From the NCBI GenBank assembly GCA_947646735.1, contig CANTFK010000990.1:1-64000 (forward strand): a stretch of DNA of 64,000 nt, read 5' to 3'. Under the pieces are notes generated by a model. That model did no database searches, had not been told where the DNA came from, and saw only the letters and a list, made by a program, of their open reading frames with translations. This document shows, one piece after another, positions 8,847-44,134 of this stretch. Made by a program: the position numbers and the translations under genes. Position 1 is the stretch's first letter. Each line of letters starts with the position of its first letter. Origin of the DNA: Peronospora farinosa (Eukaryota > Oomycota > Peronosporomycetes > Peronosporales > Peronosporaceae).

Positions 8847-8962
8847 TGTTGGAAGTTGATGTTGAAGATTATGAGTTCGATTAGCGCCAGCCGTCAATCC
8901 GGTCAGAGATAGTCAGTGCAAGATGGTAGCAGACAAGTTGGCCAGCAGCCATCTGTCGTTGA
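8847..8962 (+). repeat. Copia 5' LTR, first part
   Basis: Matches 22852-22967 with six differences. The LTR is cut after gttga by the Gypsy insertion. Confidence 0.92.
8958..8962. repeat. Gypsy target-site duplication, left copy (gttga)
   Basis: The right copy is at 17054-17058. The uninterrupted 3' Copia LTR has a single gttga at this point, which proves the duplication. Confidence 0.93.
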
Positions 8963-9421
8963 TGTAACGGGGTGAGCCCGTTACATAATATTGACACTTA
9001 TATGAAGTGTCAATAAAAATATTATTATAATTAATAATATTTTGTCAATATTACCTTTTCTAATAATATTGTTCCAGGATTCCTTGAAGTTGGAGATGCC
9101 CTCTCATTGGTTGATATGGGCCATCATATTAACCAACGCGCTGACCAATGACCGATGGACGCGCGCAATGAGTGGAGGGCAAGTCGTCAACATACATAGT
9201 TGTAGTTTATATAGTTAACATAGGTTCTAACAGATTAGTTTTATTAAGATAGTTAACTATATTTTATACAGTTTTCTTTTCCCCTACTTCTAAGCGTTTG
9301 TTTAGAAGTAAAGCTTCCTCTGCCTCTTGTGTAAGAGAGGTAATTGAGGCACCTTCTTTCACTGTAATCAGTGAAAGTAGACTATACTGTAATCAGTATA
9401 GTCGGAGGGTGCCCCAATACA
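8963..9421 (+). repeat. Gypsy 5' LTR (459 bp)
   Basis: Starts TGTAACGGG, which forms a hairpin with CCCGTTACA 5 bases later, and ends ccccaataca. Further perfect hairpins include cttcta/tagaag near 9290-9310, ctttcactg/cagtgaaag and actatactg/cagtatagt near 9357-9402. Confidence 0.94.
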
Positions 9422-9440
9422 CCTGGTAGCACTTCGTGGT
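9422..9440 (+). other. Gypsy primer-binding site
   Basis: The sequence directly after the 5' LTR, cctggtagcac, contains the expected tgg (pairing with a tRNA CCA end). The primer tRNA was not identified. Confidence 0.55.
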
Positions 9441-9469
9441 CCGTTCAGCGACCACCACACCATCCGCTA

Positions 9470-10644
9470 TGGAATCAGCGGGTGATGAACGTCATCACGC
9501 AACGCGTGATGATTTCCGCCATTTGAGTGACCTCGAATGGAATGCGGTTCAGCGTATGGCTGAAACCATCGGCAACCCTGCCGTTGGTGCCATGTTGCTC
9601 TCTCTTAGCGGAGACGACCAACATGCAACCATCGCCAAGTTCATACAACATGAACTTGACGAAGTTGTAAAGAAACTCACCTTGCTAGAGGAGCAAGGTT
9701 CTCAACAGGTTGAACTGTTGAGAGAACAAGGCGCTCAACAAGCTGACTTGTTGATGCAGCAAGGTGCTCAACATTTGAACTGTTGAGACAACAGCAGGCT
9801 GGTGCTGTTGCTGCCGGGTCGGCGTATGCACGTCGACCCGAGTCCTTGAAGATTGATGTCCAAGGCAGTCGAAAGCGACTCCTTGTTGAGATGGTTTGTC
9901 GAGCTCGACGATGCCATTGAGGCTCGTCGCATCGATGACGATGCGATGAAGGTCAAGTTCGCCATGTCGAACTTGGGAGGACGTGCCAAAGCTTGGGCCT
10001 TAGGGCTCAAACTTCACGACCCATACGTTTTCCCAACGTATGACGTCTTCAAGGCGCGGCTCAAACACACGTTTGAATCGCCTCGCGCCGAATTTAGGGC
10101 TCGGGCTGAGCTCCTGGATTTGAAACAGGGTAAGCGTGATATACACGCTTACGCCCAACACGTGCGATACCTCGTTAGCTGTATCGTACTTAACCCAATC
10201 GATGAACACACGCAGGTTACTGTGTTCATCAAGGGTCTGACAGATGGTCCTGTCAAGACCCACCTGTTCCGCTTGGAACTAGAATCGCTGGATCAAGCGA
10301 TCTCTGCAGCGGAACAGGAGGACTTTAGCCTACAACAGGCTCACGTCCACTCGGGATCCTATCGTCCACCGAGACGACAGGAGGGCGGAGGTCCAGAACC
10401 AATGGACCTATCCTATGTAGAGAGCGAGCGACCTCGCTCTACAGGGTACAAGCGATTGCAAAAGTGCAATCGCTGTCAGAAGTTGGGCCACTACGCTTAT
10501 GAGTGTAGTGCCCCACGCCCAGTGTCTCGTAACACTGGGAGTGACGATCGACCGTCTGCCAAGAAGGGCCAGAGACGTGGGTCCCACGCTGCTGCGAAAT
10601 CGCAACAACGTGGTGAACCATCAAAATACGGTCGGGGTCAGTAG
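9470..10644 (+). pseudogene. gag: Gypsy gag, frameshifted
   Basis: The first part (ATG at 9470; an upstream non-ATG frame begins at 9436) encodes an acidic N-terminus and a repeated Gln/Leu coiled coil built from about 33-nt units (EEQGSQQVELL, REQGAQQADLL, MQQGAQ) at 9690-9785. A one-base loss near 9776 and a second shift near 9860 move the frame. The larger part (9853-10644) gives a capsid-like LLRWFVELDDAIEARR, GRAKAWALGLK, and a zinc knuckle CNRCQKLGHYAYEC (C-X2-C-X4-H-X4-C) near 10465-10510. It ends at a TAG at 10642. Confidence 0.85.
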
Positions 10645-10689
10645 GGGCGGAGCGCTCTACTGATCCAGCAACGTCAAGAGAGTTCGCGG

Positions 10690-11391
10690 GACTCTTGACG
10701 AAGGTTGCTCCCAACACACAGTCACTGTGTGTTGCCGCTCCCAGTGATGCGGTATCCCTCATCACCTTGAAGATCGAAGTGACAGAGAACATGTCACTTC
10801 GCGCCCTAGTTAATTGTGGGGCTTCGAACAACTTTGTTCGACGCCAATCGCTGGATGATCATCGTAGTCTCAAATAGGTTGAGCGCGAGACCCCTCCAAC
10901 GAGGATGACGGTGCGCCTTGCGGCTGGCGCATCCGTAACAGTAAAGAAACGTGTAGTGGGAATTCACTACACGCTTGAAGGCAAAAAGTACGATGATGAT
11001 TTCATCGTACTTGATCTGGATGACAAGTTTTTGATGTCAACCTAGGATTGCCATGGCTCAGAGGTACGAGCCATGGGTCATCTGGCAGCATCGAACCGTG
11101 AAGATGCCTGCCGCTTGTTCATCAGATGACAATCTGATGAACGTCTTGGAGCGTTCACAAGCGTGTGAATGTACTACGAGTGAGTGTGATGGCCTCACTT
11201 GTGGTTCGGTCGTTAGTACGACTGCACAAGAACTCAGCGTGACAGACAGTCACGCTGTGGAACAAGCTGCCGGCGACTGTGCACAAGCACAGGCAGCGCC
11301 GAAGGTCCACCACTCGAATAAGTCGAGTGGAAAGGGACATGAATGCTCGCCTAGAGGGCAGCATTCACCGAAGAGTAAACCGGTTGCCTAG
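10690..11391 (+). pseudogene. pro: Gypsy aspartic protease region, inactive
   Basis: The segment LRALVNCGASNNFVRRQSL carries the protease active-site region, but the position normally Asp (D-S/T/C-G-A) is Asn (codon aat). A TAG follows at about 10875. The second half (KYDDDFIVLDLDDKF, then the LGLPWL motif) is present but displaced by two nearby compensating frameshifts around 11025-11060. The 11060-11391 linker is Ser/Cys/Ala-rich and probably a spacer before RT. Confidence 0.8.
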
Positions 11392-11502
11392 AAGCGGCAA
11401 CACGGTAATCCTAGATCAACTGGAGAGTTGATCGTAGAGGATCTCGCTGTGGTTGCGCCACCACAGCTAGAGGAAGTCGATGGAACAAGTTTCATCGAGC
11501 CT

Positions 11503-11573
11503 GCGGGAATAAGTCCCCAGGAAATAATCACTGCGGGAATAAGTCCCCAGTGCCGTGAGGGAATAAGTCCCCA
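11503..11573 (+). repeat. Three tandem copies of a gggaataagtccccag unit in the protease-RT linker
   Basis: Copies at 11503-11520, 11533-11550 and 11559-11573. Each is itself a small hairpin (ggga/tccc) and encodes GISPQ. Confidence 0.85.
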
Positions 11574-11597
11574 GGAAGTAACCGAGAGATAACTCAG

Positions 11598-13246
11598 TTG
11601 CCTACGCTAGAGCCTAAAAGGTTCTTGCGTGATCTGCGTAGTGGCAAAGTCAAGCAGATCTGTGTGCTCGTCGCAGAAGACGAGCACATGACTGACATTC
11701 GGTCAGCAACAGTTTTTGCCGAGAACGAACGGGTTCTCAGCAGCTCATCAATGGACGAAAGTGCCCTTGATGAGAAGACTCGGATTAAACGATATACATC
11801 GCAATCCTGGGAGTCGCTGAAGTCAAATCCTTTGTACAAGGATTTGGTCGAATTCAAGGATGTATTCCCTGAATCCGTTCCGTGCGAGTTGCCTAAGGAT
11901 AAAGGTACTCGACACGAGATCGACCTTGTTCCTGGCACAAAATATTGTGTCACAAAGCAGTGGTCACTGCCTCGGGAACAGGTCGAGACGATCGACAAGT
12001 TCTTTGCCGATCGCCTAGCAGCGGGCCATGTGAGGGAGTCAACTTCACCTCACAGCTCTCCGACCTTCTGTGTGCGCAAGGCCACAGGAGGGTGGCGGAT
12101 AGTGCACGCGTTCAATAAGTTGAACGCTGCAACGATACCGGCGCAAACGCCGATACCGAGAAAGGACGTAATCATAGATGGTATGTCTAAGAGTACCATC
12201 TTTTCGTCCATGGATCTGATGGATGGTTTCTATCAGATCCTAATGTGTGAACGGGAAATCCCTTACACGGCATTGAGCACCCCTAATGTATGCTCTGGGA
12301 ATGGTTGGTGATGCCGCAAGGGCTCAGTAATGCACCAGCCACATTCAATAGATGTGTTTCACATCTATTGAGACCGGTGCGCGAATTCGCACCGAGTTAC
12401 TTCGATGATGTGTTCGTCCATAGTCGAGCTATGGACGGGAAAACAGACTTGGAAGTCCATAGACTCCACGTCCATAAGGCTCTTACATCAATGCGCGAGC
12501 ATAAGTTGTACGCCAACCTCAAGAAGTGTATATTCGAAGCTAGTGAAATACCACTTCTTGGGTGCATCGTCGGGAAGAACGGCGTACGCCCTGATCCAGA
12601 GAAGATCAAGGCGATCACCGACTGGCCAGTGCCAGTCGATGTCAAGGGACTAAGGAAGTTTCTTGGGCTAGCGGCGTACTTGCACAAGTACTCGCGCAAT
12701 TATGCCGAAATGACAGTACATCTTTCTTGTTTACTCAAGAAAAATGTAAAGTGAAACTGGAACGCTGATTGTCAGCGTTCCTTTGAACGTATTAAGCAAA
12801 GCTTGATGCAATCGCCAGTGTTGGCGATTGCCGATCAAGACAGACCATTTCATGTGGTCTGTGACGCCAGTGATTTTGCAATCGGCTGCGCACTGATGCA
12901 ATATGATACAGACGGCGCAGAGCGTGTCGTCTGTTATCAATCGCGTCAGCTGCAACCAACTGAGCGCAACTACCCGGTGCATGACAAGAAACTCCTTTCC
13001 ATGAAATATGCACTGGCAAAGTTTCGCGTCTATCTTTTAGGAGATAGACCATTCATTGTGTATACAGACCATGCGTCATTACGCACGGATATAAACAGTC
13101 CACACCTCTCGCAACGAATGGCGAGATGGTTGTCGTTCTTCGCGGAGTACAACTTCTCCGTGGAGTATAAGCCGGGACGACTTAACGTCGTCGCCGATGC
13201 TCTTCCACGTCGGCCTGACCTAAGCCGACTGTCAATCCGACAGTGA
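11598..13246 (+). pseudogene. pol: Gypsy reverse transcriptase and RNase H, broken
   Basis: RT blocks in order: LPREQVETIDKFFADRL, SSPTFCVRKATGGWRIVHAF, SSMDLMDGFYQI, then a one-base loss near 12287 shifts the frame into VMPQGLSNAPATFNR and the catalytic box SYFDDVFVHS (YxDD intact). Thumb residues GVRPDPEKIKAITDWP and LRKFLGLAAYLHKY follow. A TGA where Trp is expected stops the frame at about 12752-12754. RNase H continues from 12755 with FHVVCDASDFAIGCALMQ, a YTDHASL block and YKPGRLNVVADALPRRP, ending at 13246. Confidence 0.9.
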
Positions 13247-13391
13247 TGTAAACACCACTGTCGCCACGCTGAGTACCAGCGTCTTGTCGTCGAGCTTACT
13301 CGACGACATTAGAAGAGCATGCGCACAAGATAATGATCTTGTACGCCTGATGGAGTATCTCAAGGACCCATCCACGCAAGCTAAGTAGCGC

Positions 13392-14306
13392 TTGCCTGCC
13401 ATGTATCGATCTTCTCTCGATCGATACACCCAGCGGAACGGCTTACTGTACTATACAGCCGTCAACAATGACACGCCTCGTGTCGTTGTACCGCCACAAC
13501 ATGATCTCAGATTACGGATCATGTTTGGATGTCACGATGCACCAATAAGTGGGCATCGCGGCCGTGAGAAGACCTACCTCACGGTCAGTCGCGACTTTTA
13601 ATGGCCACGCCAGTATAAGTTTGTGCGCAAGTACGTGCGTGCTTGCGAGGCGTGTCAACAAGTGAAGCCTAGTCCTTCACTCCGTGCACCATTGCAGCCT
13701 CTACCTGTTCCGGCAGAGTGCTGGGAGTCCGTATCAATGGACTTCGTCTTTGGGTTTCCCAAAGACGCTCACGGGAATAATGGTATTCTCGTGTTTGTAG
13801 ACAGGTTCAGCAAGATGGTACATCTTGTTGCTGTACCTGAGTCGATCACAGCAGAGGGCTGTGCTCGAGTGTTTATCGATACAATCTTTCGATTGCATGG
13901 TTTACCCCTTGAACTTGTGTCCGATAGGGACCCCCGGTTCACGGCTGAGTTTTGGCGTTCCGTGTTCCAAACACTTGGAACACGGCTCACAATGTCTACT
14001 TCTGACTATCCAGAAACTGATGGTCAGACTGAACGCGCCAATCGCGTCCTCGAAGAGATTCATCGAGGGTACGTCCACTCGTTTACGAGTTGGAGTGAGT
14101 TCTTGTCGATGGTCGAATTCGCCATCAACAACTCCGTGCATGCGTCTACGACGCATACACCGTTCTACGTGAATGACCTTCGCCATCCACGTGTCCCCAC
14201 CTTAGTAGAGGGTGACTCTAATTTAAGGGGGGGGGGACTCGCTCGAGCGAGAACCAATCTGGCTCTTGCTCATCACGCGACGACGTTATGGTCGACGCGA
14301 AAGTAA
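13392..14306 (+). pseudogene. int: Gypsy integrase, broken by one stop
   Basis: The zinc-binding HHCC module is visible: H-X-GHRGREKTY, then CEACQQVKP, with a TAA (13599-13601) in place of the usual aromatic codon just before WP. The DDE core has D in SMDFVFGFP, D in LVSDRDPRFT, and E in TDGQTERANRVLEE. The frame breaks again at a G-run near 14226-14232, after which the C-terminal linker is read in another frame. Confidence 0.88.
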
Positions 14307-15455
14307 CCGAAGTCGTACCATTCGACTTCGGTGAAGAGGAAGAAAGTAAGAGCGATGATGCTCTTACTGATAACGATGCTGACATCTTCAGAGGTATCAC
14401 AAGTGAGAACAGTAATGTTCTCGCTGCATTAGCAACCGATATCTCTGCAGTGCACTCACAATGCACTGCAGCCAAAAGCAACGAGTCAGCTGAGAATTTC
14501 CTGCTGACTCGTGAAGCGGTAGTCCGTTTCGTGCAAGAATCCATTGCGGAAGCGGTGGATAAGCAAAAACGAAACGCAGACAATAATGGAAGGGCAAATG
14601 CTCAGAAATTTATTGAAGATGATTTAGATTTACTGTCAACAGTAAACCTACCGAAACATGTAGTGACTAACGTGGGCAGCAATAAATTGTTGCCCAAGTA
14701 CATCGGCCCGTTTCGTGTATTGCGCCGCCTAGGCAACGCATACACGATCGAGTTGCCACGCAGGATGCGTACGCATCCTACGTTTTACGTGGGACGTCTT
14801 CGTCCGTACGTTCAGTACGCGGCTTCTTCGAACGACGAAGATAGCCATCACTCTCAAAAAATCCCCTTCAAATTCTTGTTTTCACGAACCAGATTCGATA
14901 CCTGGTCGTGTAGAGATGAGATCTTCCCATGATATTGGACGATCTCCTGACGAGCTGTCGCCAGCTCGTTACTTAGAGAATGAAGCCGCCGTTCATTCTC
15001 CAATAGTGCGACAGCATTGTTTGCCCGAGACTTCTCATGATCAAACTTAAGCTGTCGCACAATATCCTTAAAGCGGCGACGCTTATCCCGTTCGTGATCA
15101 ACATCACAACGTAGCTCACGAGTTACACGGGCAAACTCGTCTAACTCAGCAGCCAAATCCGATGAAAGAATCGGACAGGGTTTTCCCTCCACCACCGCAT
15201 CCGCTGGTGGACTCCCATGGTGGGAAGCGCTTCCTAGTCGTACGCTTACTAAATCACCGCGAGGTGAAGGGACGTCGGACGAGTTATCTCGTCCGAGGGC
15301 GTGGCTATCCGCCTTCGGCGGATAGCTGGGAACCTCGGGCCCAACTTATGGCCGACGTTCCCGACCTTGTCGAACAGTACGACAAGGGGCACCCGATGGT
15401 GAAGGACCATCGGAAAACGAGCGCCCAGTGCGCTCGTAAAGGGATTGCAAAGTAG
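14288..15455 (+). pseudogene. Gypsy integrase C-terminus and chromodomain, broken
   Basis: 14288-14932 gives an acidic linker and the GPFRVLRRLGNAYTIELP-type integrase C-terminal module, ending HPTFYVGRLRPYVQY. After frame disruption near 14860-15160, 15162-15455 reads a chromodomain: FLVVRLLNHREVKGRRTSY, LVRGRGYPPSADSWEP, then VPDLVEQYD. This places the element among chromodomain-bearing Gypsy elements, whose integrases are directed to particular chromatin. The 14854-15455 stretch overlaps the antisense ORF. Confidence 0.8.
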
Positions 15456-16498
15456 CAATCCCTTCACGCATCTCAGAAGAGATGCGAGCCCTCCACCATG
15501 GCTCAGTAAGGATGTACGCCTCCTTAGGCGCTCTTGACGAGGTGCTCAGGCACCCCGGGCATGGGTCGCCCCAAGAGAGGCATAACAGGCCTGCCTCTCT
15601 AGATAACCGGTGCAAACGATAGCATGCACCGGACGTACTTCGTTTATCAAACTTATTGCGGCTAGCAAAAAGTCTTTGAAACCAAGCCTCTTTCCCAACG
15701 TTTAAAACGTTGGTGATAAACGCGTTCCAAGATTTTAGGAACGCGTCGGCCTCACGCTTCTTGTGTGAGCCATACCATCGATGTTCAAGGAACACATCGA
15801 TGTAATAATCGTTCTCAGTGCGAAAGTTTTTCGCACTGGCGTCAAGGCCATGAAGCTTTGAAGCATCAAACAACGGTATGGGGAACCGTTCGTTGGTCTT
15901 TCCAGACCAACGATCAAGCAGATGCTTAGGAAGCATCCATGGCTTGCGATCAGGAGCAAGACGCAATACGTTGCGGTCTAAAGCCTCCTGCGTGGTGTCA
16001 ACAGAAGTACCGACACCACGAGCATTAGTGTCAACAGAAGTACCGACACTATGAGTATTGATGTCAGTAGAAGCACTGACATCACCCTTACGGTCCCCAC
16101 CCGAGTCACTATCCTTCGACTCGTTTAACGAGTCGTCTGATTCATCAGACGACCCGAACATTTCACGGTACATTGATTCACTCAATGTACCACGATCCCT
16201 CTTCGTAGCATTAGACGACGAGGTATCACCCCGGGGAGAGCCCGGGAGTGGAATAGGTGACTTTGAGCCGGATGCGTCGTCCGACTCACCAGAGTAGTCA
16301 ACGACTAACTCTGGGTCAACATCTTCACGTGGCGAAGCGCTACGTGAACCTGCAACAGGCGTTTCAGGCTGATGTTGACTTCCAGCAGACACATTAGAGT
16401 CGTGCTGGCTGAGGCTGTGAAGCCTCAGTAGCGGCTGCACACAGGCGTGCAGCCGAGCTCTTGACTGCCTTAGCAGCGACGCGCATTGACTTTGTCAT
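14854..16498 (-). CDS. Antisense ORF of the Gypsy element, unknown product (one frameshift, one stop)
   Basis: On the minus strand an ATG at 16496-16498, only 96 bp inside the 3' LTR, opens a frame (MTKSMRVAAKAVKSSAARLC...). It needs one frameshift near 16395-16440 to continue into a 364-codon open stretch (15346-16440). A single TAA at 15346-15348 separates this from a further open stretch to 14854. Features: Ser/Asp-rich disordered N-terminal third, a GTSVDTN tandem repeat at about 15990-16085, a basic/aromatic middle (KPWMLPKHLLDRW, FLEHRWYGSHKKREAD), and a C-terminal coiled coil (ENERRLHSLSNELATARQE). 15456-16498 has no competing sense frame, so that part is the best supported; the part overlapping the chromodomain could be a shadow. 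I recognise no domain. Confidence 0.55.
15985..16085 (-). repeat. Three degenerate tandem repeats (about 36 nt) in the antisense ORF
   Basis: Three units of the form gtgtcaacagaagtaccgac, each also a hairpin (for example ggtgtc/gacacc). They encode a VGTSVDT-type peptide repeat on the minus strand. Confidence 0.75.
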
Positions 16499-16578
16499 AG
16501 CGTAATTGTTGAATGAAAGAAAATATAACAAGTTCTCCTTTCCCATAGTCACTAAACAGTCAATAATGTGACTGTTGG

Positions 16579-16593
16579 TTGAGGAGGGGGTGA
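16579..16593 (+). other. Gypsy polypurine tract
   Basis: The purine-rich gaggagggggtga immediately precedes the 3' LTR start at 16594. Confidence 0.8.
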
Positions 16594-17053
16594 TGTAACG
16601 GGGTGAGCCCGTTACATAATATTGACACTTATATAAAGTGTCAATAAAAATATTATTATAACTAATAATATTTTGACAATATTACCTTTTCTAATAATAT
16701 TGTTCCAGGATTCCTTGAAGTTGGAGATGCCCTCTCATTGGTTGATATGGGCCATCATATCAACCAACGCGCTGACCAATGACCGATGGACGCGCGCAAT
16801 GAGTGGAGGGCAAGTCGTCAACATACATAGTTGTAGTTTAATATAGTTAACATAGGTTCTAACAGATTAGTTTTATTAAGATAGTTAACTATATTTTATA
16901 CAGTTTTCTTTTCCCCTACTTCTAAGCGTTTGTTTAGAAGTAAAGCTTCCTCTGCCTCTTGTGTAAGAGAGGTAATTGAGGCACCTTCTTTCACTGTAAT
17001 CAGTGAAAGTAGACTATACTGTAATCAGTATAGTCGGAGGGTGCCCCATTACA
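16594..17053 (+). repeat. Gypsy 3' LTR (460 bp)
   Basis: Same as the 5' LTR except for six differences (one of them a one-base insertion). It ends ccccattaca and is followed by the gttga duplication. Confidence 0.95.
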
Positions 17054-17058
17054 GTTGA
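17054..17058. repeat. Gypsy target-site duplication, right copy (gttga)
   Basis: Pairs with 8958-8962. Confidence 0.93.
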
Positions 17059-17189
17059 GGCGGTTGGAGCACAGACATTTAAGAAAACGAGTGGCTAGGA
17101 GGAAGACAGAAGAGATAACTAGTAAGTATCAATACAGAATCTTATTGTTAACCTACCGCTTCCTTCTCGCAACACGCATCTTGCCTATA
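17059..17189 (+). repeat. Copia 5' LTR, second part
   Basis: Continues the Copia LTR after the Gypsy insertion; matches the 3' LTR second half with five differences. It ends gcctata and is followed by ggttatgacc, the probable Copia primer-binding region. Confidence 0.9.
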
Positions 17190-17193
17190 GGTT

Positions 17194-18679
17194 ATGACCA
17201 CAATAGCCGGAGCCACCGAATCGACTACGAAGACACCAGGGGGTGTCCCGCGAGCCTCGCCTGGACGCGGCTCGCCAGCGCGTGCGCCCATCGCACCCGC
17301 AGTCGTCAACGATGGACCCACTCGCGAGAGCGGGCAGCGAGACGATAAGATCCTCTCCGCGCTCGCCGCACTCACCGATCGACTGGCGAGCCTCGAGACG
17401 TCGCAGAGAGTGCGAGACGAGGAGGAGCGCATGCTCAGGGCCGTGGAGAGCGGACTGTTCGCCTCGAAACTCGGCGCCAACATGCGCAGTCGACCGATGA
17501 CGATTGACGCGATCGGAGACGCGGAGGAGAAGGCACCGGCGCCGCGCGAGTACCAAAGCGCGACCGATCTGAGCGCGTCGAGATTCGCATCGCTCGAGCC
17601 ACCCCGCGCGCGCGCAGCATCGCAGCAGCGCGCACCAGCGTATGCGCCACCTCCGCGCGCATGCAGCCTCACCGACGCCGCAACAAGCCGCTCCACCGCA
17701 AGCTTATGTGCGCCCGGGCCTCAACGGATATGGAATGCCGTCGGCAAGCCAGCGTAAGTTGAACATACGCAAGTTCGATGGTACAGAGCTGTACCGCGGA
17801 CTCGGAAGCGGGTTCTTCGACTGGGGGCGCACGTTTCAGCGCGCGGTGAGCCTCGCGGAAGCGTCGTGTGGTTTCGGATGGACCGAAAACGTCAAGGTCA
17901 ACCTGCTTGGGCACTTTCTTGCCGGCACGGCTGAGAGGTACTATCACAAGCAGGTTGACACCTGGTGGATGCAGACACCCACACTGAAGTACATAATGGA
18001 GCAGCTCCTGCGCACGTTTAAGGCGTCAATCACTTCAAGCCAGGCGATGAAGCTTATCATGGCCAAGAAGGACGCACGAAGCACCTGGGCCGAGCACTTC
18101 CTGTATATGGTCGCCGTCAGCGAGGCGCGTGGTGGTGCCGACTCGCTTGTTCTGGATAACATCGTCCACCACGCTTCTCCGGAGCTGATGAACGTGATGC
18201 GTTCTAAGTATGAACCCATGCAAGTCGTCTACCTGCGCCACGCCGAGGATCTGGCGCACTTCGCGCAGTCCATTGAGTATGGCAGCAGCGCAGTGGGTCG
18301 TGAGGTCGTCGCCGCGCACGTGGAAGGCAAAATCAAGAGCGCGATCACGTGCTACCGATGCGGGCGATCGGGACACATCGCAGCTGACTGTCGCGCGCGT
18401 GTCGTGCACGACGACGAGACACCCGCAAAGGGTGGAGGCGCCAGCATGATCCTCGCGCTGACCGAGAAGCGTGTTGTGCCCACAAAGAAGCGCAACAGGA
18501 AAAAGAAGAGCTCGCGCAGCAAGGACACAGCAGCGAGCAATGCAAGAGACGGAGCGCGAGCCATGGACGACTCATGCGGATTCGTGCTTGCAACGAGAGA
18601 CGGAGCACGAGCCACGGACGGCACGCGTGGCTTCGTGCTTGAGGCGACCGATGCCACGGGGGCCGACCGAGGAGACTAA
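17194..18679 (+). pseudogene. gag: Copia gag, frameshifted
   Basis: 17194-17757 encodes an Ala/Arg/Ser-rich N-terminus with a short coiled coil (LAALTDRLASLETSQRV). The frame then moves to that of 17642-18679, which carries the capsid-like region (FFDWGRTFQRAVSLAE, LLGHFLAGTAERYYHKQ), a zinc knuckle CYRCGRSGHIAADC at about 18350-18390, and a Lys/Arg-rich tail. Two copies of a DGARAMDD/DGARATDG-type motif end the region. A TAA at 18677-18679 lies just before the protease motif. Confidence 0.85.
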
Positions 18680-19825
18680 ATCCTCGACAGTGGCGCGAGC
18701 CGGCATCTCGTCAACGACGAGTCACTGCTACTCAACTCGACGGCTTGCAGCCACGAGATCGCAATGGCAGACGGCGAGTCGCTTCACCTGACGCGTGTCG
18801 GCAGTGTGCGCCTTGAGGTTCTCGCGCGTGGCGCGAAGGCTGTCGTGACGCTTACGGACGTATACCTGGCTCCGCGACTGTCAAAGAACATTTTGTCGTA
18901 CGGCAAGCTCGAGAACAAAGGGTTTGCCTTCGTGTACGACGGTGACGAGCGCTCGCTCGCTCGGCGCAGCGATGGTGCAGTCGCGTTCAATGTCGTGATC
19001 GACAGTAACGTGCTGTATGTCGTGACGAAGGCCTCGCACGACAAGGAGGGTGCAGGCGGCGACGCGATCATGGCGGCGCTCGAAGCGCATGCAACGGAAA
19101 CCACCGCCGACGAGACGCAAGAAGCCTCGCTGTTGCATTGGCACCAGAGACTCAGCCACCTCGCATTCGACACGATCGAACGCATGACGCGAGACCCGGC
19201 ATCGGGCATTCGACTGAGCAGCAACAAACGCATGGCGTGCGTGTCGTGCCTCGAGGGCAAGCAGACGCACAACGCGTAGTCTCAACAGGAAAGCGGCGCG
19301 CACTCGCCCATCGATCGCATCGGCGGCGTCATCTGCTCGGACCTCAAGGATCCCATGACGCCGCAGGATCGGCTCGGCAATCGTTACCTTGTGAACTTCA
19401 TTGATCACAAGAGCAACTACTGCCGAGTCTTCCTCGCGCGCACAAAGGACGCTGCGGCGAAGCAATTTGAGGCATTCCTCGTTCCCTTCGAGAAGCTCTT
19501 CGGATTCAAGATTCACGTGCTCCGCACGGATGGCGGCGGAGAATACTCCAACGTGGACCTATTCTGCGAGCGCACGGGCGTCGCACGCCAAGTGTCGGAG
19601 GCGCGCAACCAAGCTTCAAACGGCAAGGCGGAACGAATGCACCGCACAGTGCTGAACCTCGCGCGTAGTATAATGTTTGCCTGCGCGCTTCCACTGACGT
19701 TCTGGGGAGACGCGGTGCAATACGCCGTGCACATCCTCAACCGGAGCCCCACGCGAGCACACGCAAAGAGTGCGTCGCCACTCGAGGTTCTGACGGGAAA
19801 GACGCCGGATCTGCGCGGAATCGTC
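18680..19825 (+). pseudogene. pol: Copia protease, pre-integrase and integrase
   Basis: The protease active site ILDSGASRHLV is intact directly after the TAA at 18677. The pre-integrase/zinc region reads LLHWHQRLSHLAFDTIERM and CVSCLEGKQTHN, followed by a TAG at 19277-19279. The integrase core continues with GGVICSDLKDPM, VLRTDGGGEYSN and ARNQASNGKAERMHRTVLN (D, D and E positions present), then NRSPTRAHAKSASPLEVLTG. The frame is lost at about 19826, where foreign sequence begins. Confidence 0.88.
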
Positions 19826-19972
19826 GTCTTCAGCGAGCAGGGTTTCGGCTTTGCCGATTTGAACGTTGCTTTTGCAACAGTAGTATAGTCTGGGATGATT
19901 TTAAAGATAATTAAATAATTATTAGATATTATTAAAAAATAAGAGTTAATATTCAAAAAAAATTAAAAAATT

Positions 19973-20191
19973 ATGGAATTAATAAAAAAATTACAAATAA
20001 AATTACAAACAAAATTAGCAGAAAATCTAAAAATTATTACAAGCATTCTAATAACTTTAAGTTTGAGTTCTATTATCCTTTATTTAGATCCTTTTGATTT
20101 AAATTTTTTTAACAAAAGAGATATTCTAGACTTAAAAGAAAATTTAGAAGAAAAAGAGGATTTAAATTTAGAAAAAAAGAAGAGGATTTAA
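19973..20191 (+). pseudogene. Mitochondrial-origin unknown ORF (72 codons)
   Basis: A Lys/Leu/Ile-rich frame with one hydrophobic stretch (SILITLSLSSIILYL) and a Glu/Lys tail, followed by a direct repeat of gaggatttaaa..agaaaaaaagaag. Codon use is AT-rich, as in oomycete mtDNA. I do not recognise it. It is presumably inert in the nucleus. Confidence 0.5.
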
Positions 20192-20720
20192 ACTTAGAAA
20201 AAAAGAAGAAAAGACTAATAATAATATCTATTATTATTTATTAGCAGCCAGATGCTGATGTAATTTTATTTGTATTTGCACCTATTTTAGCTTTTTTTTA
20301 AGTTTATTAAGTTGGACTGTAATACCTTTAGGTTTTGGTATGTTTTTTACCGAATTAAATATAGGTATTTTATATTTATTAGCAATTTCATCATTAGGTG
20401 TTTACGGTATAATTATTGGAGGTTGGTCAAGTAATTCTAAATATTCATTTTTAGGCGCATTAAGATCTGTAGGTCCTGAAGTTTTAGGTAGAGTAGTTGA
20501 TGCTTTAGGACAACCAATTGATGGTAAAGGTCAAATTAATAGTAAACTAGAAAGTAGAGTTGAGGTAAAAGCTCCAGGTATCATGCCTAGAGAAAGTGTT
20601 AAAGAACCTGTACAAACAGGTCTAAAAGCTGTAGATAGTCTAATTCCTATTGGCCGTGGTCAAAGAGAATTAATTATTGGTGATAGACAAACCGGTAAAA
20701 CTTCTATTGCTATTGATACA

Positions 20721-20755
20721 ATTATTAACCAAAGAGAACCTCTTTGGTTAATAAT
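20721..20755. repeat. Perfect 16-bp inverted repeat at the right NUMT junction
   Basis: Left arm 20721-20736 (attattaaccaaagag) is the atp1 end; right arm 20740-20755 is its exact reverse complement, with a 3-base loop. This looks like a fold-back (snap-back) copy made at a broken end before joining to Copia sequence. Confidence 0.9.
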
Positions 20756-20756
20756 T

Positions 20757-22769
20757 GTGTACAGGGACCCGGGCAAGAACTCGTTGCTGCAGCGCTCGAA
20801 ACGCGCCATCATTGTCGGCTTCAGCGAAGAAACCAAGGACTACAAGGTGCTACTACCGCGTGACAACAAAGTGGTCGTCACGCAGCACATCAAGAACATC
20901 AAGACGTTGACAAAGGCGCAAAACGCGCAACTTCAGCGCGCGATGGACGTCAACGATCGAGCCGTAGACATGGAAGAGTCAGACATACCAGCAGCAGCAT
21001 CGGTGAACGATTGTCGCGCAGAGGGAAGCAGACGCGGAAGAAGAGAGGAAAGCGATGGACGCGGGCGGCGCATGGAACACGCGGTGCGTCAAAACGCGCA
21101 GAAGCGGCTGCTCGTCAGGAGGAGGCAGCGCTAGCGGAGAGGTCGTAAACGCTGTTTTTGAGCACGATCCGCTTAACTACGGACAGGCGATGCGCAGCGT
21201 CAAGCGCAAAGAGTGGGAGAAGGCTATGCAAGAGGAGATTGCCGCGCTTGAGGCCAACGACGTCTGGACAATCACAAAGCGAACGCCAGGGACGCACGCG
21301 TTGCACACAAAATGGGTCTACAAGACCAAGACGGATGCGCAGGGCGACCACGAGCGGCTGAAGGCGAGATTGGTGGCGTGCGGCAACGAGCAGGTGCTCG
21401 CCGTCGACTACACGCTCACCTTCGCTGCCGTGATGGACCTGTCGACGGTCAAAGTGATCCTGGCGCTTGCGGCGACGTGGGGGGTGCCTGCCAAGCACGA
21501 CGACATCCCCAACGCCTACGTCAAAGCCGACAAGGAGCCACACCTCCGCATCTTTCTTCAGATGCCGCGCGGCATGCCGGTATAGGAGGAGACGCTGCGA
21601 GCGCATGGCGTTGCGAACGCGAGTGAGTTGTGCTGGAGCTGAGAAAGAGCCTGTATGGGCTCAAGAAGGCAGGCCGGCTATGGAGCCAGCTGCTGCACTC
21701 GAAGCTCACTGTTGCTGGTTTCACGGGGTGCGAGAGCGACATGTGCTTCTACTGGAAGCGCGACGGCGACGACCTCGTCGTGGTCGGCGTGTATGTCGAC
21801 GATCTCCTCGCGACAGGGACGAGCGCGGCAGCGGTCGAGCGGTTCTTCAAAAGCCTTGCTTCGTTGTCGATTAAGGACCTGGGGCGGGTTAGCAAGTTTC
21901 TGGGCATGCGCTTGACGCACAATGGTCAGCGCGGGTCCGCGCTCGATCAGGAGGAGGCCATCAGATACCTCCTGCGCGACAACGGTCTCTCAGACGCCAA
22001 CTCGACGTGGAAGCCGATCGACGACAGCTGCTACGAGCTTGAGGAGGGCGATGCGGATCTTCTTGGGACGCCAAGCGCGCGACTAGGACCGACAGTGCGC
22101 CAGTTCCAGTCGCTGGTCGGCTCGCTGCTCTGGGTGGCGCGTTGCACGCGCCCCGACTTAGCATTTGCGGTGCACAAGGTCACGAGACGAGCACACGCCT
22201 CGACTGAAAGACTGGAAGCTGGCGAAACGCGTCGCGCGATACCTCAAGGGTACGGCGGCGCTCAAGGTCGCGATGATTCCAGAAGACAACCCGGGTGCGG
22301 TGATGTGCCTGGAAGCATTTAGCGACGCGGATTTTGCCGCCGACAAGACGGACCGGAAGTCAATGACGGGTGGCATCGTAATGCTGAACGGGATGGCCGT
22401 CAGCTGGGGTGCGTGGAAGCAGGGAGGAGTATCCCTGTCGACGATGGAGCGGAGTTTGTTGCGGCGAGTGAGGTCGCGCGCGAGCTGCTCGGCCTGCGTG
22501 AGATGTTGCGCGAAGTGAACGTGGAGTCCAAACTCCCGATGCAGTTGCGAGTGAACAACCAAGCGGCAATCGCGCAGATCGCGGGCGAGGCATCGTCGCT
22601 GAAGGCGAAACACGTGGATGTGCGCCTCAAGTTTTTGTGCGACTACTCGCGTCGCGGCATTATCGTGGCGAGCTACGTCAGGTCGGAGCAGATGCTCGCA
22701 GACCTCCTCACGAAGGCGTTGGACGCGACGAAGCTCTCGACACTGCGCGCGCTCGTGCACATCATGTAA
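20757..22769 (+). pseudogene. pol: Copia reverse transcriptase and RNase H, broken
   Basis: After the NUMT, Copia resumes with [20 protein letters not shown]. The RT begins near 21160: EWEKAMQEEIAALEANDVW, LHTKWVYKTK, ERLKARLVACGNEQ. A TAG at 21583-21585 interrupts after LQMPRGMPV. The catalytic VGVYVDDLL is intact near 21790, followed by LGRVSKFLGMRL and LVGSLLWVARCTRPDLAFAV. Frameshifts at about 22230 and 22440 split RNase H (FSDADFAADKTDRKSMTGG; then RVNNQAAIAQIA and KAKHVDVRLKFLCDY), ending at 22767-22769. Confidence 0.88.
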
Positions 22770-22851
22770 GGAAAGATCAAGAACGATCAAGGGTGTTCAA
22801 GGACGTTTGAGGGTGGAGTAAGGGAAGAACGGAGGCGTAATCGAGGAGGAG

Positions 22852-23098
22852 TGTTGGAAGTTGAGGTTGAAGATTATGAGTTCGATTAGCGCCAGCCGTT
22901 GATCTGGTCAGAGATAGTCAGTGCAAGATGGTAGCAGACAAGTTGGTCAGCAACCATCTGTCGTTGAGGCGGTTGGAGCACAGACAGTTAGGAGAACGAG
23001 TGGCTAGGAGGCAGACAGAAGAGATAACTAGTAAGTATCAATACAGAATCTTATTGTTAACCTACCGCTTCCTTCTCGCAGCACGCATCTTGCCTATA
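22852..23098 (+). repeat. Copia 3' LTR (247 bp)
   Basis: Uninterrupted copy, used as the reference for the empty Gypsy site. A purine-rich tract (aatcgaggaggag) lies just before it. Confidence 0.93.
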
Positions 23099-23103
23099 AC
23101 TCC
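23099..23103. repeat. Copia target-site duplication, right copy (actcc)
   Basis: Pairs with 8842-8846. Confidence 0.85.
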
Positions 23104-23264
23104 TTCATCTTGAACGTAGTTGCGAGCAGTGCTGACTAATCGGCTTCGGCAATCTCCATGCTGGTCTTGGCGGTGGTGATCATGTTGAACCTCTCTTTGA
23201 TTGGTAGAAATGTTATTTTTCAATTCTGATCAGTTCTGACCAATCAAGAGATGTCAAAAGTATC

Positions 23265-25219
23265 ATGGAACTAGATCGAGCAGACGAAGAGATGTTGCTG
23301 GAGAAAGTGCCGCAGCAGCTTCATGCTGGACGACGTGATGAGCGCAAAGACTCATTCTTTGCCTTTGCCTTTGCAGTCAATTGTGGAGCTGTGAGCTTCA
23401 TTGCGGTGCGTTCTTTTTGTCACGAGAATTGCAGATTCAGATGTACCTTATTGAACCATTCCATGTGTTTTCTCTCTCTCTTCTTTTGGTTTATTTGTAG
23501 CTTTTCTTCGGCCTTCCAAACATCTCAAGCATTTATTTTACCGTGCACCACGAGGACGATTCGTCTCATGGTCTGAAAATTTTCTTAATCTTCTTGGCAA
23601 CGTCCTGCGTTGGTGGCGGTGTGTCGGCGCTATGGCTGCAAGTGCTACAGAACCATGCAGAACGCGTGATATCGTGGACATTAAGAGTCAGCATTGTTGC
23701 CTTCATCATGGCTTCACTAGCCTCCTTCTACGACTCTGGAATGGCTGGAAAAGCCATTGGTTTTTTCAATCTGTTCTTTGCCCTTATGATTATCACGTAC
23801 TACACCTCTGTCCGGCGTTCGATCGCTTTTGCAGCATCTAATTTAACAGCTGCTTCGAGGATTCTGCGGATGTTTCCTGGTGTTATCACATCGGCGTACA
23901 TGGCTTTGTTGGCCCAGGGACTGTGGGTCGTAATTTGGGGTACAGCAGTAGTGGGTGTCTTCGCCAAGGCAGTTGGCAACCTACATGACTCGAGCTCCTT
24001 TGGCAACACTTGCTTCTTCTTTATGCTACTGAGGTACGTATCATTGTTCTCTTAACAGACTTTTGTTTAGCGTCTTTTGACGCAATTGGGGTGTGGTTCG
24101 ACAACTTTGCAGTTTTTACTGGTTTATGCAAGTTGCCAAGAACGTAGTGCACTGCATCACCGCCGGTGCGGTCGGCGAATGGTGGTTTGGGGCTCACGAC
24201 GTTAATACAATCCAACGGGCTCAAACACGTGCGCTCACGACGTCTCTTGGCTCGATTTGTGTCGGTTCTCTAGTGGTTGCTGCGCTGAACGCACTGCACA
24301 CGCTTTTGCTATCGACCCCGCGGCGAAAGGCCAAGGGCAGCGCCAACGCGTGTCTGGAATTCCTGGTCAAGCTGGTCATGCGCAATATGCAGTACTTTAA
24401 TAAGTACGCGTTCTGCCAGATAGCGTTGTACGGGAAAGACTTTCGGCTTGCTGGATCGGACACGATGCAGCTTTTCCGGGATCGTGGATGGACGGCTTTG
24501 CTTAACGACTCGCTCATATCAAGTGTCCTTGCAGTAGGGTGCCTAGTTGCTGGTACGTTTTCTAGGCCTTGCACATGTCTGTAAACTCTACTAACTCAAA
24601 CCGGCTTTGGTAGGCGCCGTGTCTGGAGTCATCGGCTCGGCCTGGCTGTATCTAACCCTACGATGTACACCGGACGAGCTGGCCGAAAACCCAAACCAAT
24701 GTCGTGCGTGGCATGCTGTCTTGTATCTAAAGAAGGGGGGAATGTTTCTTGTGCTCATATGATGATTCCTTGTTGTGCCGCTTAGAGACTTTTAACGTTG
24801 TGGTATTGACCTTCGTGGCATGTGCTTCGATCGGTTACGCCATGTGCACGATCTTGTCAACCATCTTGGACTCTGTCGTCGCGACCATCTTCGTTTGCTT
24901 TGCCGAGGTACGTTTACATTCATTCGTGCATGGACGGTTTGTCAACCTGACGGTCTAAAGTCGCGCTTTCGAGCAAGTTAAGTGACGAACCGACTAGGAT
25001 ATACCTGGTCGGAAACTGGCCACCTCAGCCGACCTACCATTCTCTCACGCCTGCGGCAGAATCCCACCCTTCTCACCATGTGCATTGTTTACGTTGTAAT
25101 TGTATGATCAGGACCCTGCGGCACTGCAGCGTTCTCACCCGGACGAGCATGCACGTCTTGTCGAATCTTGGAGTCGCTTGCAGCCGGGTTTGTTGAGCTT
25201 CCCGACTCACATGGTGTGA
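23265..25219 (+). CDS. Choline transporter-like (SLC44/CTL/PNS1 family) membrane protein
   Basis: CTL proteins are multi-spanning plasma-membrane or mitochondrial proteins implicated in choline or organic cation transport. Six exons join in phase: 23265-23405, 23501-24033, 24113-24552, 24614-24750, 24788-24907, 25112-25219, giving about 492 aa. The start ATG opens an acidic cytosolic N-terminus. About ten hydrophobic segments follow. Family blocks: a YWFMQVAKNVVHCITAGAVG transmembrane region, MRNMQYFNKYAFCQIALYGK, the GWTALLNDSLISSVLAVGC region, and the C-terminal CFAEDPAALQRSHPDEHARL tail, which closely follows PNS1. The 24751-24787 intron (37 nt) is unusually short and its borders are the least certain. 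The gene starts 161 bp after the Copia insertion. Confidence 0.9.
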
Positions 25220-39720: not shown

Positions 39721-40077
39721 TTGTTTTGGCTATAATCAGTGCAATGAACAATTTATGGAATATTTATAGTCAAGGTAAATGGAATATACTATATTCCTTC
39801 ATAGAGGTTTTGTTTTGGCATGAAACGACTGGCCCCGTAACAGCTTCTTGCAGCTTCACGCTATTATCAGATTGACATTGATTGACACACCTTTTGTCTC
39901 GGCATCGGACGAAGCACTGCCTTTGTTCGCTCAATAAGTGTGATAAGTACAGCAAGATAAAACAGACGACCGCTGGAACCTTTTGCGAGCGTTTCAAAAT
40001 GCATTGAAAAGAATGAGACGTGAAAAAGAAAAACTACAATCGACACGGTTTGTCAGCCCTTGTTATTTGTTGTAAGC
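39721..40077. other. Intergenic between BMT2 and UBC13
   Basis: No coding feature seen. It holds the BMT2 promoter and the UBC13 3' region. Confidence 0.5.
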
Positions 40078-40817
<740 letters not shown>

Positions 40818-41656
40818 CGTTTCTTAGCACTGTGCTTTTGTATACTAATTAGAGATGATTATATATATGCAAAAGCGACGCGGTCTCTAGAGCAACATAT
40901 TATAGTCTATTACAAAGGTTCAGGAGTGATGATGATGTTGCAGCTTAATGAGAAAGAGCGCGGAAAAGCGACTGAATGCGGAAGGAGCGACGAGTGCTGA
41001 CGGATGCCGCAGGGATTAGAACGAAGCAAAGCTGGCAAAATTGACGACATCGATCACTTTACCGATTACGTGGTGCGGTGTCACTCCTCTCCATTTTCTA
41101 TAAAATGGACATGCTAATTTAATCAAAAGGTATATTGAAGACAGAGCTGTAGATATTTCTACGAAGCATGCTCGTCTATAGGAAATAGATGCTCACCTCG
41201 GTAGTGTGTGTGTTACCATTTATTAGTGCAGACCGCAATGAAAGTAATAAGCCCACGTCACATGTGGTTTAGCATATACTGGAGACTAAAGTGTTGGCGT
41301 CATCATATTCAAGCGACGATCTGATAATCTGATAACATGTTGACAACGTAGCTAATATTCAAGTCAACAAGCATTAATTTGTATCTGATACCGTTGGAAT
41401 GGTACGATACAGATAGCAATAAGACAGTCAACATGAAGCTAGACTTATTACATTGAAATACGACACTCTTTTTCATATTAAGGTATTAGATTATACAACA
41501 ACATATATAAATTACGTTTACTAAATTAAATCTTTGGATTTGTAGACTAAAACACCAAGCAAAGCCAAAAGCTGCGGCTAGAATGCATTCATTCGTAGAT
41601 GTAAATCACTCCCCCCTCAGTCTTTAATCCCTTTTAATTCCCAATTGTTGAACACG
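40818..41656. other. Intergenic between UBC13 and fumarase
   Basis: 839 bp with no supported coding sequence. AT-rich 41320-41550. Presumably two divergent promoters. Confidence 0.5.
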
Positions 41657-43126
41657 ATGTTATCCGCTGCTGTAGGAAAAGCCGCCGCTACTTCCAGTCG
41701 TCTGACTGTTGTTAAAGTGGTCCGTGCCGCCAGTACGTTCCGTGTCGAGACGGACTCGATTGGAGAGGTTAAAGTAGATGATTCCAAGTACTGGGGCGCA
41801 CAGACGCAGCGCAGCCTTGAGAACTTTCCAATTGGTGGTGCTCGTGAGCGTATGCCTATTCCTGTAATTAAGGCATTTGGTGTCGTGAAGAAGTGCGCAG
41901 CCAAGTACAATCTAGAGAAGGGAAAGCTTGAGGCGACAGTCGCTGAGAAGATCATTGCTGCAGCTGATGACGTCATTGCTGGCAAATTGGACGACCATTT
42001 CCCTCTCGTCGTCTTTCAGACGGGCTCAGGGACTCAATCCAATATGAATACGAATGAGGTCATCAGTAACCGTGCCATTGAATTGGCCGGCGGTGTGCTC
42101 GGTAGCAAGACGCCTGTGCATCCAAATGACCATGTGAATATGGGCCAATCGTCGAATGACTCGTTTCCGACGGCCATGCATATTGCTGCTGTACAGGAGG
42201 TTCATCGTGTGCTACTTCCTGGACTCTACAAATTACATGATGCTCTGGACGTTAAGGTGAAAGAGTTCGACGACATTATCAAGATCGGACGCACTCACAC
42301 GCAGGACGCAACGCCGCTGACTCTTGGACAAGAGTTTTCTGGCTATCGCGAGCAGATTGCTGTCTCTATTGAGCGTGTAGAGCGTGTTCTGCCTAATTTG
42401 TGCAAGTTAGCACTTGGCGGAACGGCTGTAGGCACGGGTTTAAATACGTCCAAGGGCTATGATGCTGAGATCGCCAAGATTATTGCGGAAGAGACCAAGC
42501 TGCCGTTCATCACCGCCCCCAATAAGTTTGAGGCGCTTGCTGCCCATGATGCCGTCGTGGAGGCCAGTGGTGTGATGAACACCATTGCCTGCTCCCTCAT
42601 GAAGATCGCCAACGACATTCGTTTTCTCGGTTCGGGCCCGCGCAGTGGTCTGGGAGAGCTCACACTACCCGCGAATGAGCCTGGCTCGTCCATTATGCCT
42701 GGAAAGGTGAACCCCACGCAGTGTGAGGCCATCACAATGGTGTGTGCGCAGGTCATGGGCAACCACGTCGCTGTGACGGTGGGTGGCTCGAACGGTCACT
42801 TCGAGCTGAACGTGTTCAAGCCCGTAATGATCAGCAACTTGCTGTCGTCAATCCGCCTGATTGGTGACAGCTGTAACGCGTTTACGGACAACTGCGTGGT
42901 AGGCATCGAAGCGAACCGCGAGAAGATTGATCAGCTTATGAAGAACTCGCTCATGCTCGTCACGGCGCTAAACCCGCACATTGGCTACGACAAAGCCTCC
43001 AAGGTGGCTAAGAAGGCGCACCAGGACGGTGCCACCCTACGTGAGACCGTCATTGCTCTCAGCTACTTGACTGGTGAGGAGTTTGATCGCTTTGTACGCC
43101 CCGAAGAGATGGTTGGCCCCAAGTAA
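41657..43126 (+). CDS. FUM1: Fumarate hydratase, class II (mitochondrial)
   Basis: Converts fumarate to L-malate in the TCA cycle. Single exon, 489 aa. The ATG at 41657 opens a typical presequence ([20 protein letters not shown]). Class II features: [17 protein letters not shown] near the start of the mature protein, [39 protein letters not shown], the [17 protein letters not shown] block, and the superfamily signature [15 protein letters not shown]. Catalytic His and Ser positions are all present. No introns, unlike most neighbours. Confidence 0.97.
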
Positions 43127-43258
43127 ATTGACCAAACGTCACATTAAAATCGCCACTAAACTTTTGATGACGTAGCTGTTCATACATGTGGTTTACTTAC
43201 TATAATTCTAGTTGATCAGAAATGCATGAACCTTTTTTATGAAACTAAAGAGTATTTT

Positions 43259-43339
43259 CGACAGCTGTGAGGTTTGAACTCACGCGGGTTACCCCAATGG
43301 ATTTCAAGTCCATCGCCTTAACCACTCGGCCAAGCTGTC
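43259..43339 (-). tRNA. tRNA-Ser (anticodon TGA)
   Basis: On the minus strand the cloverleaf begins GACAGCTTGGCCGAGTGG and ends with acceptor pairing AGCTGTC plus discriminator G. The anticodon loop is CTTGAAA, anticodon TGA (Ser UCA). It has the long type II variable arm (GGGTAACCC region) and GTTCAAACC T-loop. No intron. The discriminator is read from the base at 43259. Confidence 0.93.
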
Positions 43340-43690
43340 CGGATGATAGATTCCAGAACTTTTACTATATTATTTAAATAGTATACAAAGACTTTATAAT
43401 AAAAAACGTCTTACGCCGAGGATAAAAAGCGGCAGGTGGAATTGATTCTATCGGGCAAAACGCAATACAAAACATGGATATTCAAAGGTCTGTCCGTTGA
43501 GCTTCAGGAGTCGATACCGAATTCACCGTAGGCACCGATAGTGTCGTTCTTCTCTGGTCGTTACTTGAGCTCTGCATTTCATATATTGCTGCTTGAAAGG
43601 GCAAGTACAGGGCATTCTAGCCAAATTGACACATTAAATGCAAACGGAACATCAATTATCAGCCCTTTCGTCTTCTCTCATGTCACATGA
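43340..43690. other. Intergenic between tRNA-Ser and the DAD1-like gene
   Basis: No coding feature recognised. It contains the upstream region of the tRNA gene and the 3' region of the small gene that follows. Confidence 0.5.
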
Positions 43691-43970: not shown

Positions 43971-44106
43971 AATGTCGACCTTTTTTCTACTAAAAACAAA
44001 ACATATTTTTTCGACTACTTAATACAATTTTCTATTGGTCAAAAATAACTTGGATTACTTTCTACCACTGATTTTCAAGAGCAAAGAATCAGATAAAATC
44101 TCTGGA

Positions 44107-44120: not shown

Positions 44121-44134
44121 GCTTTTAATCCAAA

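Follow-up and report, generated by a model that had tools for sequence, protein, structure and literature searches.

Serial short hairpins run the length of a Ty3/Gypsy retrotransposon of Peronospora farinosa, with signs of selection on folding and of template switching

The window analysed here is a 64,000-nucleotide stretch of the oomycete Peronospora farinosa (GenBank assembly GCA_947646735.1, contig CANTFK010000990.1, positions 1 to 64,000), and at 8960-17053 it holds a long terminal repeat (LTR) retrotransposon of the Ty3/Gypsy chromovirus kind, the gag and pol frames of which are broken in this copy. A sequence-only reading of the window had claimed that short perfect inverted repeats recur through this element from one LTR to the other, in coding and non-coding parts alike. 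The array is real and stronger than first thought, as set out below. The two LTRs are 462 and 463 nucleotides (nt) long and differ by 5 substitutions over 462 positions. In another, better preserved copy of the family, L015 (copies are given locus numbers, L001 being the window copy), pieces searched separately against Pfam gave Retrotrans_gag, Ty3_capsid, an aspartyl protease, RVT_1, RNase H, and the integrase zinc-binding and core domains, with SH3_Tf2-1 and a chromodomain in a further overlapping frame. The LTRs, the order gag, protease, reverse transcriptase, RNase H, integrase, and the chromodomain in its separate frame thus identify L015 as a Ty3/Gypsy chromovirus. In both L010 and L015, copies whose frames are long and open, the integrase is split; the frame with the SH3/chromodomain part overlaps the end of pol (by 47 nt in L015, 5624-5670; window 14288-14306), which is either a site of recoding or a frameshift that has become fixed. 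Between pol and the 3' LTR lies an antisense open reading frame (ORF), 590 amino acids long in L015 (6123-7895, minus strand), for which there was no Pfam match and, by BLASTP, no meaningful similarity to the two antisense ORFs of L025, a locus of the sister family described below. The features of the window copy are as follows.

8960..9421, plus strand: 5' LTR, with hairpins in series from 2 bases in, at 8962-8986, 8989-9015, 9016-9043, 9046-9071, 9285-9310, 9356-9377 and 9380-9403
9436..9786, plus strand: first gag piece, where the frame is broken; gag domains were detected in L015
9853..10644, plus strand: second gag piece, with a zinc knuckle recognised by eye
11598..12311, plus strand: pol piece, start of the reverse transcriptase, recognised by eye; the domain search was on L015
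12290..12754, plus strand: pol piece, reverse transcriptase, by eye
12803..13246, plus strand: pol piece, RNase H, by eye
13623..14306, plus strand: pol piece, integrase, the query for the family
14288..14932, plus strand: C-terminal part of the integrase in another frame; the counterpart ORF of L015 has SH3_Tf2-1 and the chromodomain
15346..16440, minus strand: antisense ORF, dense in hairpins
16591..17053, plus strand: 3' LTR, with hairpins matching the 5' LTR set plus one at 16738-16767 (arms 12)

The integrase piece at 13623-14306 was used to search a genome of 46.85 Mb in 274 contigs, and the family proved to number at least dozens of copies. In the database comparison, for which the best 120 of 1753 matches were listed, the integrase is of the same kind as that of Peronospora and Phytophthora Ty3/Gypsy proteins, compared as proteins only; the closest of these 120 are Peronospora effusa proteins, 98% and 97% identical (P0001, P0007), and the entries from P. 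matthiolae among them are 65-89% identical. A protein filed under Aeromonas veronii (P0046, on a 1189-base contig) is 66% identical and probably reflects contamination. Six stretches in viral contigs searched for relatives fit a pattern, and none was confirmed.

Perfect inverted repeats with loops of 3-15 nt were counted and compared with 30 dinucleotide shuffles in 400-nt blocks. With arms of at least 7, the element contains 116 repeats where 6.6±2.4 are expected, and the disparity widens with arm length: 88 vs. 1.5 for arms of at least 8, 58 vs. 0.3 for at least 9, and 32 vs. 0.0 for at least 10. Chance or base composition is rejected as a cause by this excess. The neighbouring DNA had been described as free of the pattern, and the counts bear this out, since six 8-kb blocks of the window without the element hold 2-10 repeats where 5.6-6.7 are expected (arms of at least 7); the block at 16001-24000, with 35 vs. 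9.3, includes the element's tail. The roughly 56 kb outside the element hold 23 repeats with arms of at least 8 when loops of 0-15 are allowed. Outside the element there is also a lone perfect hairpin at 20718-20758, with 19-base arms and a 3-base loop. All seven of the previously named examples that we looked up are present within one base of where they had been placed; these are the first seven of the lines below, which go on to other hairpins of the window copy.

12345..12371: arms 12, loop 3
12759..12781: arms 10, loop ttg; the loop is exactly inverted in L014
13745..13767: arms 10, loop 3, within the integrase region
10950..10973: arms 9, loop 6, within the protease region
12676..12691: palindrome of 16 bases
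15304..15326: arms 10, loop 3
15890..15913: arms 10, loop 4
10712..10734: arms 11, loop 1
10986..11012: arms 11, loop 5
11117..11142: arms 11, loop 4
11663..11688: arms 10, loop 6
12808..12831: arms 10, loop 4
13285..13308: arms 10, loop 4
13402..13428: arms 10, loop 7
13960..13985: arms 11, loop 4
14306..14332: arms 10, loop 7, where the integrase frame ends
14445..14512: pair of hairpins, arms 10 each, 9 nt between them
15393..15486: four successive hairpins, at 15393-15413, 15417-15437, 15439-15464 and 15467-15486
16117..16191: three near-adjacent hairpins, at 16117-16135, 16132-16153 and 16167-16191

Since the frames of the window copy are broken, codon-preserving shuffles that keep the protein (100 each, arms of at least 8) were run on L015 and L010. 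In L015, gag has 19 repeats vs. 0.66 in the shuffles, pol 41 vs. 1.21, the third ORF (ORF3) 14 vs. 0.4 and the antisense ORF 28 vs. 0.88, and pol of L010 has 39 vs. 1.5, so that codon usage or protein sequence is rejected as the source of the pattern; the same density in shuffled sequences, which would have made the array unremarkable, was not observed. Each LTR of L015 holds 8 repeats. Arm lengths from 7 to 12 occur 25, 34, 37, 23, 9 and 5 times in L015, a hump at 8-10; the longest perfect arm is 12 in the window copy, and among the first 13 family loci retrieved two have an arm of at least 14. When mismatches are allowed, L015 resolves into 198 non-overlapping hairpins covering 60% of the copy, where five shuffles give 37-44.

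Predicted folding gives the same picture. We calculated the minimum folding energy difference (MFED) for 350-nt fragments at steps of 175 with 10 dinucleotide shuffles each, a procedure near but not identical to the published protocol, and the comparison of folding energies that had been proposed as a check yielded a mean of 42.3% for the window copy (lowest fragment 21.5%) and 48.4% for L015, where all 45 fragments reach at least 33.7% and the antisense strand gives 50.2%. Published values, in the available part of PMC7642675 (the papers cited here are represented by parts of their text), are about 15% for SARS-CoV-2 and 23.4% at the highest, so the predicted folding of the element would be about twice the highest virus value there, by fragments and shuffles that resemble but do not copy that protocol. 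Other retroelements score far lower (sister family 12.4%, a further Gypsy family, H2, 10.2%, L039 0.6%, L042 0.8%), as do a host stretch of the window at 40001-48000 (1.8%) and the stretch at 17100-25100 (5.9%). Against codon shuffles in 201-nt windows, the folding z is -4.99 for pol of the main family and -5.05 for the antisense ORF, compared with -1.12 for H2, -1.52 for the sister family and -0.24 to 0.17 for five other retroelement ORFs; by z and MFED together, the sister family has mild extra folding. Of all predicted pairs, GU accounts for 5.1% in L015 and 8.2% in H2, compared with 10.7-14.3% in the sister family, L039, L042 and the two window stretches.

The array is common to the family, being present in every one of the 22 copies retrieved by region, four of which are partial, and the idea that it is an oddity of a single copy was rejected on that ground. 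With arms of at least 8, the 13 loci fetched first have 67-120 repeats, five further loci 54-107, and four 4.5-kb family pieces 36-39; these per-locus counts take in some flanking DNA, and the lowest values are from partial elements. The sister family (L022-L028), 63-66% identical in the integrase stretch and the next group among the matches listed, is without the array: its seven loci have 7-16 repeats per 9-kb locus, few of them in interior bins, and gag-pol of L025 has 3 vs. 0.83 in codon shuffles (arms of at least 8 in both cases). At places equivalent to the hairpins, 35% of 301 pairs are complementary in the sister family, vs. 21-27% when the positions are slid, and we read this residual complementarity as probably due to shared protein constraint. 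Five of seven control stretches from other retroelements are without an array (0-1 repeats per 4 kb, arms of at least 8), and two have one (16 and 9). The latter are both copies of H2 (L041, L044; G000:C48, G000:C266), which is 55% identical to the main family over 1158 aligned residues and has the weaker array (16 vs. 0.95 expected, arms of at least 8); in L041 the copy lies within an open frame of 2209 amino acids. Only 3 of 24 mapped H2 hairpin centres lie within 1.5 nt of a main-family hairpin, a figure that has no chance expectation attached, and with the hairpins placed elsewhere the arrays must either have had more than one origin or have changed place entirely.

How the hairpins fit into coding sequence bears on the further claim that synonymous positions are tuned to pair, which agrees with what we find. 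For the 34 of 39 pol hairpins that were usable, the two arms match the sister protein at identities of 0.519 and 0.485, compared with 0.532±0.046 for random placement, which suggests no clear amino-acid cost, and in the same comparison no concentration of amino-acid change in the arms or in one arm, as a donor/recipient footprint would leave, was seen. Ordered from best to poorest use of third positions, the pairing registers occur 18, 15 and 6 times in pol, where the best is favoured, 8, 6 and 4 times in gag, a weak preference, and 8, 9 and 11 times in the antisense ORF, where there is none, so that this ORF may not be what constrains its region. By our own count, 20 of 31 single internal mismatches in gag and pol stems with at least 8 Watson-Crick pairs join two first or second codon bases. 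The hairpins of L015 are most often separated by exactly 9 nt (24 of 197 gaps, with 8 gaps of 8 nt and 4 of 10 nt), and this is kept at stricter thresholds (17 of 164, 11 of 140); against neighbouring lengths P is 6e-7 at the loosest threshold and 7e-4 at the strictest. Gap lengths that are multiples of three are preferred overall, which explains part of the excess. In L015, a putative primer-binding site immediately downstream of the 5' LTR and a putative G-rich tract immediately upstream of the 3' LTR lie mostly in gaps, an anecdotal observation.

The many copies allow decayed resident copies to be compared with variants that were passed on. We aligned 26 sequences to L015, namely the window copy and 25 fetched sequences including L015 itself; L002, L003, L006 and L007 were omitted as duplicates of L009-L012, and in most rows stretches below 75% identity were masked. 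Variants in at least three sequences (shared) are taken as mostly passed on, and those in one sequence (private) as mostly decay after insertion. In 121-nt windows of real copies, the mean polarity-free change in folding free energy (|ddG|) of the sense strand is 1.27 kcal/mol for 154 shared variants and 2.05 for 1648 private ones (p=9e-8), and for third-position transitions in gag and pol it is 1.07 vs. 1.71 (52 vs. 212, p=5e-4). That shared variants disturb predicted folding less than private ones suggests purifying selection on structure, and as a test this is free of hairpin annotation and clearer than per-site stem counts. The latter are.0143 in stems,.0382 in loops and.0183 in linkers for shared variants, and.191,.215 and.204 for private ones; relative to private variants, shared ones are depleted in stems vs. 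loops (odds 0.42, p=0.004), and in the first 21 sequences shared variants stood at.0082 per site in stems vs..0146 in linkers. One-sided changes away from Watson-Crick pairs give 13 GU, 2 AC and 2 other mismatches when in at least three sequences, 15, 10 and 9 when in two, and 110, 89 and 177 when private (Fisher, at least three vs. private: GU vs. rest p=1.2e-4, GU vs. AC p=0.027).

Template switching has left marks of a different kind. A scan of the 26 aligned sequences for exact reverse-complement replacements with at least 3 differing bases found loop inversions at five places (L015 element coordinates): 2364 in L019, 3898 in L014, 4607 in L036, 5309 in L037, and 7531 in L018 and L037. Each of the five forms the core of a hairpin, flanked by 8, 10, 11, 5 and 11 pairs, respectively. 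Control matches that were reversed only numbered 0, and nine that were complemented only are the 5309 and 7531 cases again; the loops there read the same backwards, so these two rest on their position in a hairpin. Three of these five places had already come up when annotated loops were scanned, as had an inversion of two bases at 2533 in L021. In a minority haplotype among 35 LTR sequences, the hairpin at 325-350 and its neighbour are each changed in both arms, and an indel accompanies these changes; the 3' LTR of L018 combines the left arm of one haplotype with the right arm of the other, being either a recombinant or an intermediate. More widely, the LTRs of L014, L017, L035, L037, L018, L015 and L011 comprise two haplotypes and mosaics with breakpoints within hairpins, a pattern that suggests recombination between element RNAs. 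Exact loop inversion between intact arms and concerted multi-base change of both arms, here in two LTR hairpins, are likewise described for template switch mutations that create or maintain RNA hairpins, in the available part of PMC8794818; there the process is proposed for DNA replication and RNA genes, whereas here it would concern an entire retroelement of some 200 stems, reverse transcription being the candidate step. Compensatory stem changes between copies, expected if pairing is restored, occur in LTR hairpins and none was counted in gag, pol or antisense stems: among 112 stems, the two-sided Watson-Crick changes are two adjacent pairs within a single LTR hairpin, in at least three sequences, and one private case, which gives no sign of ongoing arm correction in the gag, pol or antisense part. 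Private changes are not clustered in arms above the level outside. One-arm differences between the two H2 copies were rejected as a sign of arm copying, because about 6% of 9-nt windows there carry at least 2 differences anyway. At one of them, the hairpin-bearing copy has what we presume to be the usual residues of the protease motif, and loss of the hairpin is as likely.

On balance we favour, as rather likely, a genome-scale ordered RNA structure (GORS) in an LTR retrotransposon that is kept by selection and whose near-perfect Watson-Crick arms were probably written by template switching; of the causes suggested in the sequence-only reading, RNA structure selection and template switching both gain support, and its interpretation as a whole is borne out in part. 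The full-length RNA would fold end to end into a chain of short, near-perfect hairpins, with arms mostly of 8-10 and loops mostly of 3-7. Snap-back template switching, most simply during reverse transcription, would have written the arms, and selection for a compact folded RNA would have retained those hairpins that spare the proteins. Near-pure Watson-Crick arms are easier to explain if template switching writes them, and the array's persistence needs selection because inversions are rare. The array, to judge from the aligned copies, looks to be both a substrate for template switching and under selection for its folding. Several results weigh against this interpretation. Inversions are found at 5 places compared with 1648 private substitutions, probably too few for template switching among resident copies to keep the stems perfect by itself. 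The two strands are about equally stable in predicted folding, and |ddG| of the antisense strand is also lower for shared variants (1.39 vs. 2.09; third-position transitions 1.25 vs. 1.86), while for transversions on the sense strand the difference is weak (1.69 vs. 2.30, p=0.055). Shared variants do not differ significantly between stems and linkers over the 26 sequences (p=0.47). The GU:AC bias fades for variants in at least two sequences (28:12 vs. 110:89, p=0.11), and fixed single stem mismatches are AC (23) more often than GU (11), which second-position base composition may partly explain. With fixed AC mismatches in excess and equal folding of the strands, the sense RNA is not clearly the sole selected strand.

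Mutational drive alone, in which frequent snap-back of the reverse transcriptase perfects chance quasi-palindromes, only protein-damaging events are purged and the hairpins are functionless, would account for the loop inversions, the two-arm LTR changes with their indel, the low GU share, the strand symmetry, the different array positions in the two families and the mismatches where codons are fixed; we nevertheless consider it doubtful, as shared stem variants are GU rather than AC (13:2) and less destabilising, and two-sided changes are confined to the two adjacent LTR-hairpin pairs and the single private case. A variant that joins drive and selection is tentatively possible: the element would rewrite its own genome as the reverse transcriptase stalls near hairpins, snaps back and adds perfect hairpins at a short preferred distance, the array spreading and being kept by selection such as small-RNA escape, in two Gypsy families separately and to different extents. 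The exact 9-nt gap as the mode (24/197) would suit a packaging or assembly code of repeated Gag/nucleocapsid binding sites with short single-stranded linkers between them, yet no common motif was apparent by eye in the 35 four-base loops listed, and the gaps are clustered rather than even, part of the 9-nt excess being covered by the general preference for multiples of three, which makes such a code improbable. Less probable still is a function at the DNA level, exerted either while the cDNA is single-stranded or, after integration, by cruciforms: it would fit near-pure Watson-Crick stems and equally stable strands, but not the GU excess among shared stem variants, nor private variants nearly as frequent in stems as in linkers (.191 vs..204 per site), a sign that resident copies are not protected.

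Set beside known systems, the element resembles GORS genomes as described in the available part of PMC3950689 in its consecutive stem-loops over the whole genome, coding sequence included, in an MFED raised along its whole length and in pair positions that are not conserved between relatives, here by the comparison with H2. Paired sites in GORS genomes show less diversity; in the element, shared variants are rarer in stems than in loops (p=0.004) but not significantly rarer than in linkers (p=0.47), and the |ddG| comparison is clearly positive. Shielding of the RNA from host sensing also belongs to GORS and would be a putative trait here. GORS is a property of positive-strand RNA virus genomes, whereas this is an LTR retrotransposon, and the element differs further in its MFED of 42-48%, its short, near-perfect and GU-poor stems and the equal stability of both strands. 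Ty3, a relative with a folded genomic RNA, was probed by SHAPE (selective 2'-hydroxyl acylation analysed by primer extension), and the text of PMC11381356, as far as available, describes a mosaic with stable regions making up to 30% of the RNA, as opposed to the predicted array from LTR to LTR here. A search of open PubMed Central (PMC) literature, by titles and the starts of abstracts, found no report of a hairpin-built retrotransposon among the papers listed.

The benefit to the element might be that host small RNAs or RNA-dependent RNA polymerase can hardly reach its RNA, while the stems would be too short to be cleaved by Dicer. Oomycetes possess small RNAs, some of which match transposable elements (PMC3522703, PMC3804510, both in part), so that shelter from silencing would be a sensible function, if a guess. 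The array thus suggests a possible way for a retroelement to evade small-RNA defence, and because decayed and passed-on variants can be compared across its many copies, this family makes it testable whether selection builds genome RNA structure or template switching writes it.

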